Origin: Clostridia bacterium
GTDB lineage: Bacteria > Bacillota_A > Clostridia > Oscillospirales > Acutalibacteraceae
Direction of reading: 5' to 3'
DNA: 6,904 bases
NCBI GenBank assembly: GCA_017445685.1
Contig: JAFSTS010000110.1
Span: 1-6,904 of the forward strand
Positions 1,163-6,904 of this stretch are shown here, piece after piece; within the stretch, counting starts at the first letter, position 1; each line of letters starts with the position of its first letter. The notes beneath the pieces are model-generated. The model did not search any database, was not told the DNA's origin, and saw only the letters and a list, made by a program, of their open reading frames with translations. The translations under genes were made by a program, and so were the position numbers.

Positions 1163-1630
1163 TTAGAGAATTGTTTCCATGCCGGTTTTTTGAACTTTCA
1201 TGCCCATTGCTTCGTAAAACTTCTTAGCTTTTTCGTTGCACTCCCACACATTGAGCGTGACATTATAGCAGCCGATTTCTTTTGCATATTTTACGATATG
1301 TTCATACATTGCTTTTCCAATGTGCCTGCCGCGCTCATTCTCGTCAACGCAGATATCGTCAACGTAAAGAGTCCTGATATCTGTCAGCAGACTATCATTT
1401 TTATGCTCCGCAAGCTGACAAAAAGCATGAGCTGAAATATTGTCCTTTTCATCTTCGAAAACAAAAATGATCATCTCTTCGTTTTCGATTATTTTTTGCA
1501 GCTCTTCTTTGGTATATTTTGTTGAGCCGCCCTTGAAAATGTCCGGTCTGCCCTCGTGGTGAAGAGCTCCTACCTGCGAAAGAAGCTTCATTATCGCATT
1601 GACATCTTCTTTTTTTGCTTTTCTTATCAT
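1163..1630 (-). CDS. GNAT family N-acetyltransferase
   Basis: This 155-residue single-domain protein has the GNAT fold pattern and should transfer an acetyl group from acetyl-CoA to an unidentified amine. The acetyl-CoA-binding motif A is DDICVDENERGRHIGKAMYE (91-110). His103 stands where many family members have the first glycine of the R-x-x-G-x-G/A loop. The C-terminal region has the typical VTLNVWECNEKAKKFYEAMG stretch (124-143), in which Tyr139 is a candidate general acid. The N-terminus (MIRKAKKEDVNAIMKLL) is also typical. GGAGG (plus-strand 1636-1640) lies 5 nt before the ATG. It is the last gene of the nucleoside operon, 16 nt after pdp, and is probably co-transcribed. Its substrate cannot be predicted, and a role in nucleoside metabolism is only suggested by position. 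Confidence 0.88.
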   Translation of the reverse strand: MIRKAKKEDVNAIMKLLSQVGALHHEGRPDIFKGGSTKYTKEELQKIIENEEMIIFVFEDEKDNISAHAFCQLAEHKNDSLLTDIRTLYVDDICVDENERGRHIGKAMYEHIVKYAKEIGCYNVTLNVWECNEKAKKFYEAMGMKVQKTGMETIL

Positions 1631-1646
1631 TTTGACCTCCGGGAAT

Positions 1647-2945
1647 TTATTTTACAGTTTTATGAACAAGCGGCACCCCCGACGGCTTTTCTTTCGAAAA
1701 CTCGATCGCGTCAAGAAAAATCTCTTTTGACTGCGAGAAATCGTCATTTTGCGAAGAATAAAGCGTTGCAATTTTTTCGCCTGCTTTAACAAAATCCCCT
1801 CGTTTTTTGTTAAGTCTTATTCCTGCGGTAAAGTCGATTTTTCCGCCAAGCTCCGTTCTTCCCGCTCCGAGGACACAAGCGGATTTTCCGATTTTTTCGG
1901 TGTCGGTTTTTGAAATATATCCTTCTTTGAAGCTATAAACATCGCACGAATATTTTGACTTTGAAAATTCATCGCTCAAAAGAAATCCAATGTCTCCGCC
2001 CTGACATGATATCCATTCGCAGAACTTGTCAAAAGCCGCTCCGCTTTCAAGAGATTTTTCCACCATATCCTCAGCGTTTGAAATATCGACACCCTTGCAC
2101 AGAGCTACCATGTTTGCGCTGAGCTTTACGCAAAGATCGCGAAGCTCGCCTCTTTCTTCGTTTTTCAAAACTTTTATGCTTTCTTCAACTTCTATCCTGT
2201 TGCCGATACAACTGCCCAAAGGAGTGTCCATATCGGTTATCAGCGCAACGGTGTTTCTGCCGTTTCTCTTGCCGATCTCAACCATCTCTTCGGCAAGAGC
2301 CTGCGCGTCCTGTAATGTTTTCATAAATGCGCCGCTTCCGCATTTGACATCGAGAACGATACTATGCGCTCCGGCAGCAAGCTTTTTGCCCATTATCGAC
2401 GAGGCAATCAGGGAGACATTGTCGACCGTGGCGGTCAGATCCCTGAGGGCGTATATTTTTTTGTCCGCAGGCGCAAGATTTCCGCTTTGACCGACTACGC
2501 AGATCCCGATCTTTTCAACCTGACTCAAAAATTCTTCCGTCGAAAGCGAAGTTTTGTAACCCGTGATCGACTCAAGCTTGTCGACCGTTCCGCCCGTATG
2601 ACCAAGCCCTCTGCCTGATATTTTTGCAACAGTGCAGCCGAGGCTTGCAACGGTCGGCGCTACGATGAGAGTCGTTTTGTCGCCTACTCCGCCTGTGCTG
2701 TGTTTGTCGACCGTATTGCTGCCGAAGCGTGATAAATCGACCGTATCTCCCGACAGACAGATAGCTCTTGTAAGAGTTGCCGTCTCACGCGAATCCATGC
2801 CGTTTAAAAAAATTGCCATAAGTAACGCCGAAGCGCAGTAATCGGCAATTTCTCCGTTTGTATAGCCTTTGACAAAAAATTCAATTTCTTCGTCCGTCAG
2901 CTCGTGTCCATCTCTTTTTTTCTCGATAATATCGTAAATTTTCAT
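1647..2945 (-). CDS. pdp: Pyrimidine-nucleoside phosphorylase (thymidine/uridine phosphorylase)
   Basis: This cytosolic enzyme cleaves thymidine, deoxyuridine or uridine with phosphate to the free base and (deoxy)ribose-1-phosphate. It has 432 residues, matching Bacillus pyrimidine-nucleoside phosphorylase (about 433). Visible motifs are the phosphate- and cation-binding KHSTGGVGDKT (81-91), the family signature SGRGLGHTGGTVDKLESI (110-127), YALRD with substrate-binding Arg168, and SSIMGKK with Ser183 and Lys187. The position after Met185 is Gly, where most relatives have Ser. VKCGSGAFMK lies at 200-209. The ATG at 2943-2945 is preferred because CTCC on the plus strand (2955-2958, GGAG on the coding strand) lies 9 nt upstream. 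A 27-residue N-terminal extension is open but lies inside cdd and matches no family sequence. The gene starts 4 nt after cdd ends. The alternative name deoA (thymidine phosphorylase) is possible; length and residue pattern favour the broader-specificity Gram-positive enzyme. Confidence 0.95.
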   Translation of the reverse strand: MKIYDIIEKKRDGHELTDEEIEFFVKGYTNGEIADYCASALLMAIFLNGMDSRETATLTRAICLSGDTVDLSRFGSNTVDKHSTGGVGDKTTLIVAPTVASLGCTVAKISGRGLGHTGGTVDKLESITGYKTSLSTEEFLSQVEKIGICVVGQSGNLAPADKKIYALRDLTATVDNVSLIASSIMGKKLAAGAHSIVLDVKCGSGAFMKTLQDAQALAEEMVEIGKRNGRNTVALITDMDTPLGSCIGNRIEVEESIKVLKNEERGELRDLCVKLSANMVALCKGVDISNAEDMVEKSLESGAAFDKFCEWISCQGGDIGFLLSDEFSKSKYSCDVYSFKEGYISKTDTEKIGKSACVLGAGRTELGGKIDFTAGIRLNKKRGDFVKAGEKIATLYSSQNDDFSQSKEIFLDAIEFSKEKPSGVPLVHKTVK

Positions 2946-2949
2946 TTTC

Positions 2950-3351
2950 TTATTCTCCGAGCGTGAAGCTTTTGGGCAGCATTTCTCCAAGCGTGTGTAT
3001 TTCGACGCCGCCCTCTTCGTCTTCAAAAATCAATTCAAATTCCTCTTTGCAAAATTCGCTCATCACCTGGCGGCACGCCCCGCAGGGATAACAAAACCCT
3101 TTGGCCTTTCCGTTTTTTCCGCCGACGACGGCAATTTTTCGAAACCTTTTTTCACCATCCGACACCGCCTTGAAGAAAGCAGTTCTCTCCGCGCAATTGC
3201 AAAGCGGAAAAGAAGAATTTTCAACGTTGCAGCCCGTGTAAACTCTGCCGTCTTCACATAAAAGAGCCGCCCCTACGCTAAACTGTGAATAGGGGCAGTA
3301 AGCATTTTTCATCGCCTCTTTTGCAAGAGACAGGAGATTTTTGTCACTCAT
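2950..3351 (-). CDS. cdd: Cytidine deaminase
   Basis: The enzyme hydrolytically deaminates cytidine and deoxycytidine to uridine and deoxyuridine, feeding pyrimidine-nucleoside phosphorylase encoded next in the operon. It has 133 residues, the length of the homotetrameric Bacillus-type enzyme. The zinc site is complete: Cys53-Ala-Glu55 (NCAER) supplies one cysteine and the catalytic glutamate, and PCGACRQ supplies Cys90 and Cys93. The substrate-binding GCNVENSS (40-47) is present. I chose the ATG at 3349-3351 because it aligns the N-terminus (MSDKNLLSLAKEAMKNAY.PYS) residue for residue with B. subtilis Cdd as I remember it, and a GGTGAT ribosome site lies just upstream. A GTG three codons earlier (3358-3360) overlaps the deoB stop as GTGA and is a possible alternative. 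Translation is likely coupled to deoB. Confidence 0.95.
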   Translation of the reverse strand: MSDKNLLSLAKEAMKNAYCPYSQFSVGAALLCEDGRVYTGCNVENSSFPLCNCAERTAFFKAVSDGEKRFRKIAVVGGKNGKAKGFCYPCGACRQVMSEFCKEEFELIFEDEEGGVEIHTLGEMLPKSFTLGE

Positions 3352-3355
3352 ATTT

Positions 3356-3361
3356 ATCACC
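3356..3361 (-). promoter_or_regulatory. Ribosome binding site of cdd (decides start)
   Basis: On the coding strand GGTGAT matches the 5' part of the anti-Shine-Dalgarno of 16S rRNA and stands 4 nt before the ATG at 3351. The site contains the deoB stop codon (TGA) and the alternative GTG start, so deoB termination and cdd initiation share the same bases. Confidence 0.6.
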
Positions 3362-4469
3362 CGAAATAATCCAAAACGGTTTTTGAAATAAAATCAAACG
3401 AGTCCACCGTGCCGAAATTCACGCTTTTTTCGCTCTTCCCGTAAACAAGCACAGGCACTCTCTCCCGTGTGTGATCCGTTCCTTTAAAGGCAGGGTCGCA
3501 ACCGTGATCGGCTGAAATTATCAGCATATCTTTTTCGTTAAGCTCCTCCAAAAATCCGCCAAGCCAGCCGTCAAAATCGGCAATTGCTTTTGCGTAGCCG
3601 TCAACATCCCGGCGATGACCGTAGAGCATATCAAAATCGACAAGGTTTGCAAAACAAATCCCGTTGAAATCACGCTTGACTATTTCACTGAGCTTTCGCA
3701 TACCGTCAAAATTGTCCGAAGTAAAATTGGATTCGGTAATGCCTTTATGTGCAAAAATGTCGGCTATCTTGCCAACGGAAATTACATCAAAGCCCTTTTC
3801 TTTCAGTTTGTCAAGCATTGTTTTTTTCGGCGGCTGAAGGGAAAAATCATGTCTGTTTTTTGTCCTGTAGAACGGATATTCTCCGGCGAAAGGACGCGCA
3901 ATGACTCTGCCGACTGCATATTTTCCGACAAGAATTTCCCTCGCCTTTTTGCAATATTCATAAAGCTCCTGCACGGGCACGATATCCTCGTGAGCCGCGA
4001 TCTGAAAAACACTGTCGGCTGAAGTGTAAACGATAAGGTCGCCCGTTTTCAAGTGCTGCTCACCGTAATCCCTGATAACCTGCGTGCCGGAATAAACCTT
4101 GTTGCAGATAACTTTTCTGCCGACTGCATTTTCAATTTTTTCAATTATTTCGCGGTCAAAGCCGTTTGGAAAAGTCGGCATCGGCTGCTCGGAAATCAGT
4201 CCCGCGATCTCCCAGTGTCCTATCGTGGTATCCTTGCCGCGCGACTTTTCAACCATTGCGCCATATGAGCCGGCAGGGTAAGGACATTTTTCAATGCAAT
4301 CCACGCCGTCAATATTTGCAAGTCCGAGCTTTATCATGTTTTCGGCGCAAAAGTTCGAAGAGCCCGAAATCGTTTTCAGCGTGTTTGCGCCTTCATCGCC
4401 AAAGTCAGCAGCATCGGGAGCGTCGCCTATCCCGAAGCTGTCAAGAATTATTAAAAACAGCCTTCTCAA
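3357..4469 (-). CDS. deoB: Phosphopentomutase
   Basis: The enzyme interconverts ribose-1-phosphate or deoxyribose-1-phosphate with the 5-phosphate, linking the phosphorylases to DeoC. It belongs to the alkaline phosphatase superfamily and uses a phosphothreonine and two Mn2+ ions. Residues, counted from the chosen start, agree with the B. cereus enzyme: metal ligand Asp10 (LDSFGIGD), phosphorylated Thr82 (KDTTIGHWE), Asp280 and His285 (FDMLYGHRRD), Asp321-His322 (SADHG) and His333 (GTDHTRERVP). The length of 370 residues is slightly below the Bacillus protein (about 394). No ATG is available near the N-terminus. The TTG at 4467-4469 is preferred, because GGAG (plus 4478-4481) is 8 nt away. 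A TTG at 4473-4475, overlapping the deoD stop, would leave only 2 nt. The gap from deoD is 2 nt and cdd follows after 5 nt. Confidence 0.95.
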   Translation of the reverse strand: MRRLFLIILDSFGIGDAPDAADFGDEGANTLKTISGSSNFCAENMIKLGLANIDGVDCIEKCPYPAGSYGAMVEKSRGKDTTIGHWEIAGLISEQPMPTFPNGFDREIIEKIENAVGRKVICNKVYSGTQVIRDYGEQHLKTGDLIVYTSADSVFQIAAHEDIVPVQELYEYCKKAREILVGKYAVGRVIARPFAGEYPFYRTKNRHDFSLQPPKKTMLDKLKEKGFDVISVGKIADIFAHKGITESNFTSDNFDGMRKLSEIVKRDFNGICFANLVDFDMLYGHRRDVDGYAKAIADFDGWLGGFLEELNEKDMLIISADHGCDPAFKGTDHTRERVPVLVYGKSEKSVNFGTVDSFDFISKTVLDYFG

Positions 4470-4471
4470 TG

Positions 4472-5215
4472 TCAATTCTCCAAATCTGCCGCCGTTTCAA
4501 GCGCAAGAGTGATCATATCAGTCAGCGACTGCTCGCGCTCTTTTGCGGTAAGCTCCTCACGCCTCATCAGGTGGTCGGACACTGTGCAGACGGCAAGCGC
4601 TTTTTTGCCTGCCTTTTGCGCGTTGAGATAAAGAGCCGCCGCTTCCATTTCGACGGCAAGCACGCCCATATCGGACCATCTTTTTGTGCTTTTCATTTCT
4701 TCCGGCAGATAGTCTTCAAAATTATAAAACGTGTCGCTGGAAAGAACGCTGCCTACATGATATTTAAGCCCGGCAGCCTTTGCCTTTTGGACGCATTTTT
4801 CCACAAGTGAATAATCCGCCGTCGGAGCAATATATCCCGGAACGCCGAAACGCTCGATCATGGCTGAATTTGTTGAAGCAGACAAAGCTATGACTATGTC
4901 ACGGACGCCGATGTTTTCCTGCATTGCTCCTGCAGAGCCGATACGAATAATATTTTCCACGCCGAAAATATTATAAAGCTCATGGCTGTATATCGAAATT
5001 GACGGCATACCCATTCCGCTTGCCATAATGGAAACCTTTTTGCCTTTATATTCGCCGGTATACCCCTGTATGCCCCTGACATCATTGACAAGAACAGAAT
5101 TTTCAAGAAAGTTTTCGGCAATAAATTTTGATCTTTTCGGGTCTCCCGGCATAAGCACCGTCTTTGCAAAATCGCCGGGTTTTGCGTCAATATGAGGAGT
5201 CGGATAATTTTTCAT
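4472..5215 (-). CDS. deoD: Purine-nucleoside phosphorylase, DeoD (hexameric, bacterial) type
   Basis: The enzyme phosphorolyses inosine, guanosine, adenosine and their deoxy forms to purine base and (deoxy)ribose-1-phosphate. It has 247 residues, close to E. coli DeoD (239). The N-terminus PTPHIDAKPGDFA with His8, the phosphate loop MPGDPKR (22-28, Gly24 and Arg28), Arg47 in NDVRG, Arg91 and Ser94 in IIRIGSAG, the ribose-binding VEMEA (188-192), and the purine-selecting Ser213-Asp214 in CTVSDH are all present. The Ser-Asp pair argues for the DeoD type, which accepts 6-aminopurines. A short insert around 163-182 (NFEDYLPEEMKSTKRW) is longer than in E. coli. GGAGG lies 11 nt before the ATG. The start lies inside deoC, with a 29-nt overlap in another frame. 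Confidence 0.95.
   Translation of the reverse strand: MKNYPTPHIDAKPGDFAKTVLMPGDPKRSKFIAENFLENSVLVNDVRGIQGYTGEYKGKKVSIMASGMGMPSISIYSHELYNIFGVENIIRIGSAGAMQENIGVRDIVIALSASTNSAMIERFGVPGYIAPTADYSLVEKCVQKAKAAGLKYHVGSVLSSDTFYNFEDYLPEEMKSTKRWSDMGVLAVEMEAAALYLNAQKAGKKALAVCTVSDHLMRREELTAKEREQSLTDMITLALETAADLEN
4478..4481 (-). promoter_or_regulatory. Ribosome binding site of deoB (decides TTG start)
   Basis: GGAG on the coding strand lies inside the last codons of deoD. Its spacing is 8 nt to TTG at 4467-4469 but only 2 nt to TTG at 4473-4475, which selects the downstream TTG. It implies translational coupling with deoD. Confidence 0.6.
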
Positions 5216-5876
5216 TTTTCGCGTTTCCTCCCTGTTTGAGTTGTTTAATTATCCTGCTTGTGCCGAGTCTTGACGCGCCCAGCAGGATAAAATCCTCGGC
5301 GTCTTTAAGGTCGGATATTCCGCCTGCGGCTTTTATAAGCTTGCCGTTTGAAATATTTTTTGCAAAAAGAGCCACATCTTCTTTTGTTGCGCCGCCTGAG
5401 CCGAAGCCAGTTGAAGTCTTGATATAATCTGCGTCCGAGGCGCTGACGATTTTGCACATCTTGATTTTTTCGTCTTCATTAAGAAAACAGGTTTCGACAA
5501 TGACTTTCAGTATTCTGCCGTCACAGCACTTTTTTACCTCGTTTATCTCTTCAAGGATTTTTTCAAAACTTCTGTTTTTTACATCAGTCAGGTTGACGAC
5601 CATATCAATTTCATCCGCGCCGTTTTTAACAGCGTCAGAGGTTTCAAAGCATTTTGTTTTTTCTGTTGAATAGCCGTTGGGAAAACCGATCACTGTACAT
5701 ATCTTAACTTTTCCGTCGGCGTATTTTGCCGCCTTTTCAACATAACACGGGGCAATACACACGCTTGCCGCGCCGTACTCAATTGCGTCGTCGACCGCTT
5801 GACGAACGTCTTCCCATTTTGCCGTTTGGCTCAAAACAGTGTGATCAACCTTTGAAAGAATTTCGCTTAGTTCCAT
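5187..5876 (-). CDS. deoC: Deoxyribose-phosphate aldolase
   Basis: This class I aldolase cleaves 2-deoxyribose-5-phosphate to glyceraldehyde-3-phosphate and acetaldehyde, the last step of deoxynucleoside catabolism. The protein has 229 residues and a TIM-barrel family pattern. Key residues are visible: Schiff-base Lys153 in DYIKTSTGFG, the proton-relay Lys182 in IKAAGGI, and Asp91 in EIDMVVN. The N-terminal KVDHTVLSQTA (9-19) and VIVETCFLNEDEK (125-137) are also family motifs. The ATG at 5874-5876 has GGAG (plus 5883-5886) 6 nt upstream. The last 10 or so residues (KNEKLSDSSY) follow the conserved barrel end, are not conserved as far as I can tell, and are encoded by bases that also encode the start of deoD. 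It lies 12 nt after the kinase-like gene. Confidence 0.95.
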   Translation of the reverse strand: MELSEILSKVDHTVLSQTAKWEDVRQAVDDAIEYGAASVCIAPCYVEKAAKYADGKVKICTVIGFPNGYSTEKTKCFETSDAVKNGADEIDMVVNLTDVKNRSFEKILEEINEVKKCCDGRILKVIVETCFLNEDEKIKMCKIVSASDADYIKTSTGFGSGGATKEDVALFAKNISNGKLIKAAGGISDLKDAEDFILLGASRLGTSRIIKQLKQGGNAKNEKLSDSSY

Positions 5877-5888
5877 TTTGCTCTCCGA

Positions 5889-6488
5889 TCAAAGCTTTTC
5901 CGCCGCGTCAATAATTATTTGTACTGCGTTTTCAACTCCGAGTTTTCCGCTGTTTATGCAAAGGGCGTAGTTTTCCTTTTCGCCCCATTCCATCGAAGTG
6001 TAAAAGCGGTAATGTCTGCTGCGCTTTTTGTCGCTTTCTTTAATCATTTTTTCAGCCGCGCTCTGATCAAGAGCATATTTTTGCATGATTCGGTTAAGCT
6101 TGAAATATTTATCGGCATAGATAAAAACATTCAGGCATTTGACATCTTCTCTTAATATGTAGTCGGCGCATCGTCCGACTATGACGCAAGAGCCTTCGTC
6201 CGCGTATTCTCTGATGGCTCTGCTTTGTGCAATATAGATCTGATCGGACATGAACTGAAAATTCTGGTTTGCAATTCCGCCGGTTGACAGATTGAACAGC
6301 ATACTGTTTGTCACGCGCTGCTCCTCTTTCTCAATAAAATCCTCCGAAAGACCGCTGTTTTCGGCAGCTTTGAGGATTATCGCTCTGTCGTAAAACGGTA
6401 TTCCGAGCGCCTTTGCCGCTTTTTCTCCGATCTCTCTGCCTGCGCTGCCGAACTCTCTGCTGATTGTAATTACAAGATTGTCTTTCAT
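5889..6488 (-). CDS. Cytidylate kinase-like family protein
   Basis: This 199-residue P-loop protein resembles the cytidylate kinase-like family (Pfam 'Cytidylate_kin2' type), distinct from classical Cmk. Motifs in order are a modified Walker A, ITISREFGSAGREIG (7-21), then PFYDRAII (31-38), SCVIVGRCADYILRED (100-115), a basic lid-like segment SDKKRSRHYRFYTSMEWG (152-169), and YALCINSGKLG (174-184). Such proteins are assumed to phosphorylate a nucleotide or a related small molecule, but the physiological substrate of this branch is not established. Here it is the first gene of a nucleoside-catabolic operon, which would fit a nucleoside or nucleotide substrate; this is an inference. The ATG has a weaker ribosome site, GGCGGA (plus 6495-6500), 6 nt upstream. 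No signal peptide or membrane segment is seen. Confidence 0.85.
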   Translation of the reverse strand: MKDNLVITISREFGSAGREIGEKAAKALGIPFYDRAIILKAAENSGLSEDFIEKEEQRVTNSMLFNLSTGGIANQNFQFMSDQIYIAQSRAIREYADEGSCVIVGRCADYILREDVKCLNVFIYADKYFKLNRIMQKYALDQSAAEKMIKESDKKRSRHYRFYTSMEWGEKENYALCINSGKLGVENAVQIIIDAAEKL

Positions 6489-6521
6489 ATTCAGTCCGCC
6501 TTTCTTTTTCTTTATAGATAT

Positions 6522-6550
6522 ATTTTACATTAACTGAAAAAAAATTGCAA
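6522..6550 (-). promoter_or_regulatory. Probable promoter of the nucleoside operon
   Basis: On the minus strand a -35-like TTGCAA (plus 6545-6550) and a -10-like TAAAAT (plus 6522-6527) are separated by 17 nt, with a T8 run just inside the spacer. Transcription would start near 6515, giving a 5' leader of about 27 nt before the kinase-like gene. The -35 is not consensus, and a TATAAA further downstream is an alternative -10. I see no clear operator palindrome except TTGCAA itself. Confidence 0.5.
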
Positions 6551-6573
6551 TTATTTTGAGATAAATTTTAGTG

Positions 6574-6602
6574 TTGACTTTGTTAAATTTTTGTCGTATA
6601 AT
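6574..6602 (+). promoter_or_regulatory. Strong sigma-A type promoter of the right-hand gene
   Basis: TTGACT (6574-6579) and TATAAT (6597-6602) are separated by 17 nt, a near-perfect housekeeping promoter. The start point is expected around 6609-6612. It is divergent from the nucleoside operon promoter, with 23 nt between the two -35 boxes, so a protein bound between them could affect both. Confidence 0.8.
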
Positions 6603-6608
6603 AAGGAT

Positions 6609-6734
6609 GTGATCTGCGAGGCTTTCTTGCAGAAAACGATTTTTACAATTTACTGACGCCGAATTTTTTAAGGCATAAGGACGATGGAACATATTTTGTA
6701 TTTTGCCGCGTCCTTTGACGCGGTTTTATTTTTT
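6609..6734 (+). ncRNA. Putative cis-regulatory leader with attenuator (unclassified)
   Basis: The transcript from the strong promoter starts with a hairpin, CTGCGAG (6614-6620) with CTTGCAG (6626-6632, one G-U pair). About 45 nt of A/T-rich sequence follow, including GCC/GGC (6658-6660 with 6672-6674). Then comes AAGGACG (6677-6683), complementary over 7 bp to CGTCCTT (6709-6715). That pairing, extendable by GG (6686-6687) with CC (6706-6707), excludes the terminator stem at 6706-6723. A second segment, GACGC (6655-6659), could also pair with GCGTC (6708-6712). This is the layout of an attenuating riboswitch or a protein-responsive leader. I could not match it to a known class. AAGGACG..TGGAAC loosely resembles a T-box antiterminator, but no Stem I with specifier loop is present. 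Confidence 0.55.
6706..6734 (+). terminator. Intrinsic terminator inside the leader
   Basis: CCGCGTC (6706-6712) and GACGCGG (6717-6723) form a 7-bp G/C-rich stem with a CTTT loop, directly followed by TTTTATTTTTT (6724-6734). It lies about 100 nt downstream of the promoter and 137 nt before the start codon, so it must be bypassed for the gene to be expressed. It could alternatively end a short independent small RNA. Confidence 0.85.
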
Positions 6735-6770
6735 AATAGGAAACTACTCGTTTCCTATTAAAAAATAAAA
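6724..6770. repeat. Perfect 21-bp inverted repeat
   Basis: The arms 6724-6744 and 6750-6770 are exactly complementary, with a 5-nt loop (TACTC). The tip is G/C-containing (AATAGGAAAC) and the base is A/T only. The left arm begins with the U-tract of the leader terminator. The order T-run, stem, A-run is the reverse of a bidirectional terminator, so the structure itself is not a typical terminator. It may be a small repetitive palindromic element or an RNA-processing or stability hairpin. Confidence 0.85.
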
Positions 6771-6778
6771 TTTATAAC

Positions 6779-6851
6779 GCCCGCCGATTTTGCCCTTCGG
6801 GCAACGGCGATGGCAGAATCGAAAGCGACTTTCTGTGCCGCAGACGCTTTC
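6779..6851 (+). promoter_or_regulatory. Two stable hairpins between the inverted repeat and the ribosome site
   Basis: First hairpin: GCC (6779-6781) with GGC (6812-6814), CGCCG (6782-6786) with CGGCG (6805-6809), and TTGCCC (6790-6795) with GGGCAA (6799-6804). Second hairpin: GAAAGCG (6821-6827) with CGCTTTC (6845-6851), and TCTG (6832-6835) with CAGA (6841-6844). The second ends 5 nt before AGGAGG, leaving the ribosome site single-stranded. They may be a separate control domain or stabilise the 5' end of the mRNA. Confidence 0.55.
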
Positions 6852-6870
6852 TTGTTAGGAGGAATTTATC

Positions 6871-6904
6871 ATGGAAACAAGAGTAGCTCTTATTGGAATC
6901 ATTG
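6871..6904 (+). CDS. N-terminus of a probable TM1266-type iron-only hydrogenase system regulator (3' end cut by window)
   Basis: Only 11 complete residues, METRVALIGII, are visible before the window ends. The ATG is preceded by AGGAGG (6857-6862) with 8-nt spacing, so this is a real start. The sequence resembles the beginning of the short (about 80-residue) ACT-like proteins annotated as putative [FeFe]-hydrogenase system regulators, which in clostridia are often next to the hydrogenase maturation genes hydE, hydF and hydG. The family identity rests on my memory of this N-terminus and is not proven by so few residues. Transcription would start at the 6574-6602 promoter and pass the attenuator. 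Confidence 0.55.
   Translation, partial: METRVALIGII

Follow-up and report, generated by a model that had tools for sequence, protein, structure and literature searches.

A nearly two-fold symmetric RNA element in leaders of clostridial [FeFe]-hydrogenase maturation operons, with TM1266 as its candidate regulator

Anaerobes have to match HydE, HydF, and HydG to the demand for the H-cluster. The window analyzed here (the whole stretch of 6904 nucleotides) closes on the first codons of a probable gene of the TM1266 family, preceded by a leader. The initial annotation described positions 6609-6870 as an attenuator leader of no known class, with a near-consensus promoter, an intrinsic terminator, and a 7-bp antiterminator pairing, extended by GG/CC, that excludes the terminator. 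These parts are all found where it had placed them (Table 1). The proposed interval holds from the leader to the terminator; the segment between the terminator and the ribosome-binding site is a dispersed repeat and not a part of the switch. Beyond that description, we found a pseudo-dyad core within the leader, its recurrence before hydE, hydG, hydF, and aspA, copies of a ribosome-binding-site type, and the unrelated nature of the repeat.

Table 1. Positions of the leader features in the window
Feature	Position	Strand	Basis or remark
Sigma-70-type promoter, TTGACT-17-TATAAT	6574-6602	+	11/12 consensus matches
5' hairpin at the leader start, UCUGCGAG-GCUUU-CUUGCAGA	6613-6633	+	MFE
Conserved pseudo-dyad RNA element	6653-6679	+	Match to model R1 at 6652-6683, 28.6 bits (the window sits in the R1 training set); 87-row alignment
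Parts of the element	CUGA (6653-6656), CGCC (6657-6660), GA (6661-6662), loop, AA (6670-6671), GGCA (6672-6675), U, AAG (6677-6679)		
Antiterminator 5' strand, AAGGACG	6677-6683	+	Shares the 3' AAG of the element
Antiterminator 3' strand, CGTCCTT	6709-6715	+	Terminator 5' arm and loop
Intrinsic terminator	6705-6734	+	Stem 6705-6724, T-rich tail to 6734
Dispersed repeat of ~120 nt, between terminator T-run and ribosome-binding site	about 6735-6856		Boundaries approximate
Ribosome-binding site, AGGAGG	6857-6862	+	Sequence
Start of probable TM1266-family gene, METRVALIGII..., truncated by the window end	6871-6904	+	

The minus strand of positions 1163-6488 carries, divergently from the leader, a nucleoside-salvage cluster (GNAT, pyrimidine-nucleoside phosphorylase, phosphopentomutase, DeoD, DeoC, a cytidine-deaminase-like ORF recognized by eye, and a kinase-like protein that weakly matches (d)CMP kinase). 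A contig scan with this kinase-like protein retrieved two relatives, L001 (a goat rumen MAG, 91% identity) and L002. The order in L001 is kinase, leader, TM1266, an ORF that serves as our HydG reference, and a further ORF. Its ORF at 1849-2145 matches PF21699 (E 6.5e-34), its genome matches TIGR03955 at the HydG-reference ORF (E 5.3e-285), and the last ORF is termed HydF from its order and sequence. The window ORF comprises only 11 codons, which agree with the L001 protein; the hydrogenase-system gene suggested by the initial annotation thus begins as in the syntenic TM1266-hydG-hydF operon. The L001 leader is conserved from promoter to terminator: the 29 bases spanning the -35 to the -10 do not differ from those of the window, the terminator is kept with changes in its arms, and AGGAGG comes straight after the terminator T-run. 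A pattern search also found a GYRAG..CUUKC hairpin near the leader 5' end in L150 (=L001), L131, L009, and L029; this second conserved hairpin occurs in few relatives.

The assignment to no known class agrees with our searches, since none of the 4227 families of Rfam 15 reached its gathering threshold in the window. The same search in 20 element-bearing loci gave two tRNAs and nothing else, and in 8 loci at E<=1 it gave one tRNA and a match on the opposite strand there. At E<=10, the best match in positions 6490-6904 was RsaF (29.1 bits, for a cut-off of 60), covering the terminator and the repeat palindrome at 6696-6778. Among the papers listed by our literature searches, no title or abstract describes the element, and the terms hydrogenase and hydG have 0 occurrences each in PMC11109978 and PMC6429828.

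Taken alone, positions 6630-6740 fold no better than shuffled sequences (z -1.07). The segment 6609-6880 is very stable (z -6.63), chiefly from the hairpins of the inserted repeat. The terminator stem (GCCGCGTC/GACGCGGT) has 8 pairs, 6 of them G-C, followed by the T-rich tail, and it ranks first among the 10 terminator-like sites found in the window, a count that is not significant by itself since shuffles give 8.8. The significance of the leader comes from the comparison among relatives and not from its own folding energy.

Among 118 relatives, 57 of which have TM1266, the regions upstream of this gene contain a recurring CUGA...AAAGG hairpin. We built a model of it, R1, from a 24-row alignment whose statistics are biased because rows were picked partly by pairing. 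Of 79 regions upstream of TM1266, 28 matched a pattern that uses only the sequence, while shuffles gave 0.15 on average; the pattern was designed after inspecting L003-L053, so the rate is not independent there. Pairing lies outside this pattern. Still, the N4 arms of 29 pattern matches were fully complementary in 20 cases, with three pairs in 8 and two pairs in 1, whereas shuffles give a mean of 4.25 fully complementary matches and a maximum of 11 in 5000. A larger alignment, A2, gathers 96 matches in 87 distinct rows. It was fitted to R1, and therefore leans towards that structure: 93.8% of its cells are paired, and 202 changed on both sides (54.7 on average in shuffles). When the partner is shifted by one column, pairing falls to 44-46%. 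The conserved bases around positions 6655-6690 with covarying stems, which the initial annotation had named as support, were found both in the 87-row alignment and in the sequence-only test.

The element consists of two CUGA-N4-RAAG half-sites opposed across a 4-bp helix, a pseudo-dyad that is near two-fold symmetric as RNA. The order of pairs is C-G, U-A, G.A, A.R, four Watson-Crick pairs, R.A, A.G, A-U, and G-C, with two tandem G.A/A.R internal loops. Out of 87 rows, the left half-site has C in 87, U in 85, G in 78, and A in 86, then N4, R in 86 (one gap), A in 87, A/G in 87, and G in 51; the right one has Y in 82, U in 77, G in 69, and A in 85, then N4, R in 84, A in 87, A in 86, and G in 87. 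Each element is a simple hairpin with about 12 conserved unpaired bases. The window copy is below consensus, with C6657 opposite A6675 and U6676 where A or G is usual; its P1 has 3 bp, and its P2 is tiny, with one A-U. In L023, L028, L038, L040, L042, L147, L154, L157, and L160, the hairpin takes a second form, in which P2 is GGG-loop-CCC and extra bases adjoin CUGA. After it comes AAGGCG, or a sequence much like it, that can pair into the terminator; R1 mostly misses or underscores this form.

The 3' end of the element leads into the switch. In the window, AAGGACG and CGTCCTT form 7 bp at -7.1 kcal/mol (-8.5 with GG/CC), and this antiterminator and the terminator (-13.8 kcal/mol) are mutually exclusive. 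Minimum-energy folds of the growing transcript pass from the motif (3' end at 6690) to the antiterminator (6716, 6720), and to the motif with the terminator from 6724 on. We then paired the AAAG strand with the terminator 5' arm of its own leader and with those of permuted leaders. Over 33 leaders, own pairings sum to -300.1 kcal/mol and permuted ones to -209.4 (sd 13.5), with 0 of 20,000 permutations as low; restricting the test to 26 distinct strands gives -228.2 and -161.1 (sd 11.5), again with 0 of 20,000. Five of an original 38 leaders (L131, L036, L049, L134, L147) had been removed by eye because the pattern was misplaced. In 6 of the 33 (L025, L037, L045, L052, L153, L159), pairing with the own terminator is no better than with most others. 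A test of single leaders against mononucleotide shuffles was weak (p<=0.05 in 3 of 37) and is superseded by the permutation across leaders. The pairs covary: AAGGACG/CGUCCUU, GAAGGC/GCCUUC, AGCUACA/UGUAGCU, and GAAGAUACGG/CCGUGUCUUU. The mutually exclusive terminator and antiterminator are thus conserved in the 33 leaders, with the 6 individual exceptions, and the energies in the window agree with the attenuator originally proposed.

Some copies appear to act through the ribosome-binding site instead of a terminator. In at least 10, AAAG lies directly 5' of a ribosome-binding site and an ATG, mostly that of hydG; in these hydG-proximal copies AAAG is followed by AAAGGA or similar and the ATG (e.g., L107, L117, L121, L129, L173, L181, L191). 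To judge from both layouts, a hairpin held closed should lower expression.

The element is widespread next to hydrogenase genes. R1 matched 44 of the 118 relatives at E<=0.1, a set of genomes that overlaps its training set. Of 30 loci (L054-L083), 28 lie upstream of TM1266 or HydG-like ORFs and two are false (L070, L083). Among 371 genomes of the class, 85 had a match at E<=0.01 and 40 at E<=1e-4. The best 27 new loci of this class-wide scan (L104-L130) all lie upstream of hydrogenase-maturation genes, i.e., TM1266, hydE, hydG, hydF, or aspA. The gene was called by BLAST to TM1266, HydG, or HydF in 24 of them, and by NCBIfam in L104 and L126 (HydE) and in L113 (aspartate ammonia-lyase). Identity is 41-53% for the HydG-like ORF of L111, L124, and L130, and 39-42% for the TM1266 of L114, L120, L124, and L125. 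A set of 20 more regions consisted largely of weaker or doubtful matches: 9 lie upstream of hyd genes and 2 upstream of ABC-transporter genes, 1 is at a contig end, and 8 are unrelated. Weaker R1 matches thus include false positives. For another 20 weak-match regions, detailed reading covered L084 and L085. A second model, R2, found 15 positives at E<=0.001 among 239 genomes of the phylum, and 13 of the 14 new loci are in TM1266, hyd, or Fec clusters. The element of L187 is flanked by TM1266 and by a gene that we called FecCD-like by eye. Tandem copies are common within a leader or operon (e.g., L055, L135, L137, L171). In L167 (G275) and L172 (G299) the element is upstream of Ssu/NMT1-like ABC-transporter genes, whose substrate may hint at the signal.

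Several matches were set aside. The 8 unrelated regions, L163-L166, L168, L176, L178, and L180, as well as L083 and L186, are in unrelated reading frames or have no hyd gene nearby; for L186 it is an unrelated reading frame. A role of the element in regulating FecB-type genes was rejected, as the three homologous matches (L070, L084, L085) extend over the gene's own start.

Many of these operons begin with TM1266 (TIGR03959, PF21699; structure 2nzc). It is encoded in 39 of the 40 genomes with the element at E<=1e-4, compared with 228 of the 371 overall. Among genomes with HydG, defined by a TIGR03955 match at E<=1e-230 (a cut-off of our choice, with genome lists transferred by hand), the element is found at E<=1e-4 in 26 of 112 with TM1266 versus 1 of 34 without (Fisher p 0.005, uncorrected for kinship). 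At E<=1e-3 the element occurs in 34 of the 112 and in 3 of the 34 (p 0.012, also uncorrected), and one of these three TM1266-negative matches falls in coding sequence. Two apparently TM1266-negative assemblies have the element before hydG, G309 (E 3.3e-5) and G133 (1.7e-4); searching them with PF21699 at E<=10 gave nothing real, only one 11.8-bit match in G133. Conversely, about a third to half of the TM1266 upstream regions lack the element (by pattern and eye). In G104 and G080 it precedes an acetyltransferase-like gene and hydG, and TM1266 is elsewhere without it (by eye).

The family is annotated as a putative iron-only hydrogenase system regulator, and RNA binding is our own proposal. PF21699 spans the 81-residue protein and therefore leaves no room for a DNA-binding domain. 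Across 78 sequences, R4, N22, G34, R35, G37, P39, G64, and G67 are invariant; we saw no residue tracking the element between 62 sequences with it and 16 without (split by eye). The only solved relative detected by sequence is 2nzc, with four chains. The nickel-binding C-terminal domain of NikR (PF08753) is weakly similar to TM1266 (16.6 bits, below the cut-off of 22), and the four chains are a further likeness, but TM1266 has no ribbon-helix-helix domain. Two genomes, G103 and G482, combine the element with TM1266 and HydE but lack a HydG match better than about E 5e-51. In G103 the cluster (L207) reads TM1266, FecCD, ABC ATPase, NifH-like, two nitrogenase-component-1-like genes, and a periplasmic binding protein (by Pfam), and similar clusters occur in L208 (G482) and L209 (G051), judged by ORF likeness. 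The clusters of G103 and G482 possibly represent a HydG-independent route. The ABC ATPase of the G103 operon carries a C-terminal PF21699 domain, comparable to the tails through which MetN and other transporters bind regulatory ligands. By this analogy PF21699 would be a ligand-sensing domain, and TM1266 may thus sense a small molecule.

Comparison of sequences gives us the element, the covariation of its helix, the antiterminator pairing, the association with genes, and the co-occurrence with TM1266. With about even confidence, we take the leader to carry an RNA element that regulates [FeFe]-hydrogenase maturation operons in cis, for which TM1266 would be the likeliest ligand-sensing, RNA-binding repressor. 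The free element would be weak and release its 3' AAAG strand, which would pair with the terminator 5' arm and let transcription continue. A factor binding the hairpin would sequester AAAG, allow the terminator to form, and turn the operon off. In copies that directly adjoin a ribosome-binding site, such as those of several hydG genes, translation would be blocked by this binding. We infer that the bound state is the OFF state and that the binder, most likely TM1266, encoded first in many such operons, responds to a signal. Such a repressor would set the supply of the H-cluster maturases. An RNA target is favored because such symmetry is absent in DNA. More tentatively, and with somewhat less than even confidence, TM1266 could be the founder of a NikR-C-like family of ligand-sensing RNA-binding proteins without a DNA-binding domain, which would read the two-fold symmetric CUGA-N4-RAAG operator and control H-cluster maturation in clostridia by termination and translation block.

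BglG/LicT-type antiterminators act on RAT sequences, short pseudo-symmetric hairpins with two internal loops and a strand shared with the terminator, under the control of a protein. Our element shares the two internal loops, the pseudo-symmetry, and the terminator-shared strand. However, the bound RAT hairpin is itself the antiterminator, whereas here the free 3' strand would be, and binding should terminate. The regulon and the fold of the candidate protein also differ.

Control at the DNA level is known for some of these genes. A table of Rex targets in Clostridium thermocellum includes hydG and an adjacent putative iron-only hydrogenase regulator (PMC8457756). Unlike the RNA element, Rex control is exerted on DNA and responds to redox.

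The main lines of evidence can also be read in other ways. Like the attenuating riboswitches of Rfam, the leader has a conserved, aptamer-like element with a strand common to the expression platform and the terminator 5' arm, ribosome-binding-site variants, and tandem copies. In a metabolite or metal riboswitch, the hairpin and its two internal loops would bind a small molecule connected with H-cluster assembly (for example an amino acid, an iron species, or a product of HydG or HydE), and AAAG would be sequestered in the bound state. The conserved unpaired bases, the short leader, and the use of both platforms are usual traits of riboswitches, and the element precedes hydG in the two TM1266-negative assemblies and transporter genes in L167 and L172. 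Yet it lacks a family match, is unusually small for a riboswitch, being a plain hairpin in which few of the conserved bases are unpaired, and has a two-fold symmetry that suggests a symmetric protein; TM1266 is also present in nearly all strong-match genomes. A HydG product is not an obvious ligand, since G103 and G482 keep the element, TM1266, and HydE without a full HydG match. We regard a riboswitch as less likely, though the strongest contender, and a protein, TM1266, touching the RNA as somewhat likelier than the sensing of a metabolite, metal, or redox signal by the leader.

If a protein is involved, it could be another widespread RNA-binding protein of clostridia, with TM1266 merely among the regulated genes. 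The RNA evidence would be the same, and the presence of TM1266 tracks the operon. However, the element would then be expected in TM1266-negative hydG genomes, where it is scarce at both thresholds, and we find this improbable. A promoter and terminator of a small RNA, leaving TM1266 unregulated, would account for the repeat that parts terminator and gene in the window. This is very improbable, as L001 and the majority of relatives have the terminator immediately ahead of the ribosome-binding site, and conservation extends to the antiterminator pairing. Least credible of all is attenuation by a leader peptide, with ribosomes stalling on a short ORF (AUG at 6684) to control the antiterminator. 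Although ATGGAACATATT follows AAGGACG in the window, the start is GTG in L001, and four codons later one inserted base puts that ORF out of frame. No ORF of this kind was seen at this place in other leaders (by eye), and what is conserved is the helix of the RNA; we rejected the peptide on these grounds.

The RNA operator before these genes gives the TM1266 "regulator", which was not known to have a target, a candidate that can be tested. Should TM1266 bind it, this common family of small proteins would be a new class of RNA-binding regulator; if it does not, the element would be a riboswitch candidate for a signal related to the H-cluster. The operator also offers a handle on H2 production by gut and rumen clostridia.

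The repeat of the window is unrelated to the switch. It is absent from L001, the closest relative, and present at the same position in L017. We counted 19 matches in G001, 30 in G051, and 0 in 8 other genomes, some of them being partial or a single hairpin counted on both strands. It is made of a perfect hairpin, AATAGGAAAC..GTTTCCTATT, followed by GCCCGCCGA..TGCCC..GGGCA.CGGCGATGG..CGCTTTCTTG. A phage, plasmid, or viral origin was rejected, as there was no match in plasmids, in phages, or, for the exact pattern, in viral contigs. Since the window copy of the element is degenerate and is then followed by the repeat insertion, this genome may have a weakened or impaired switch. Copies of the repeat lie in the window, in L017, and in L195-L206, and several copies adjoin terminator-like hairpins.
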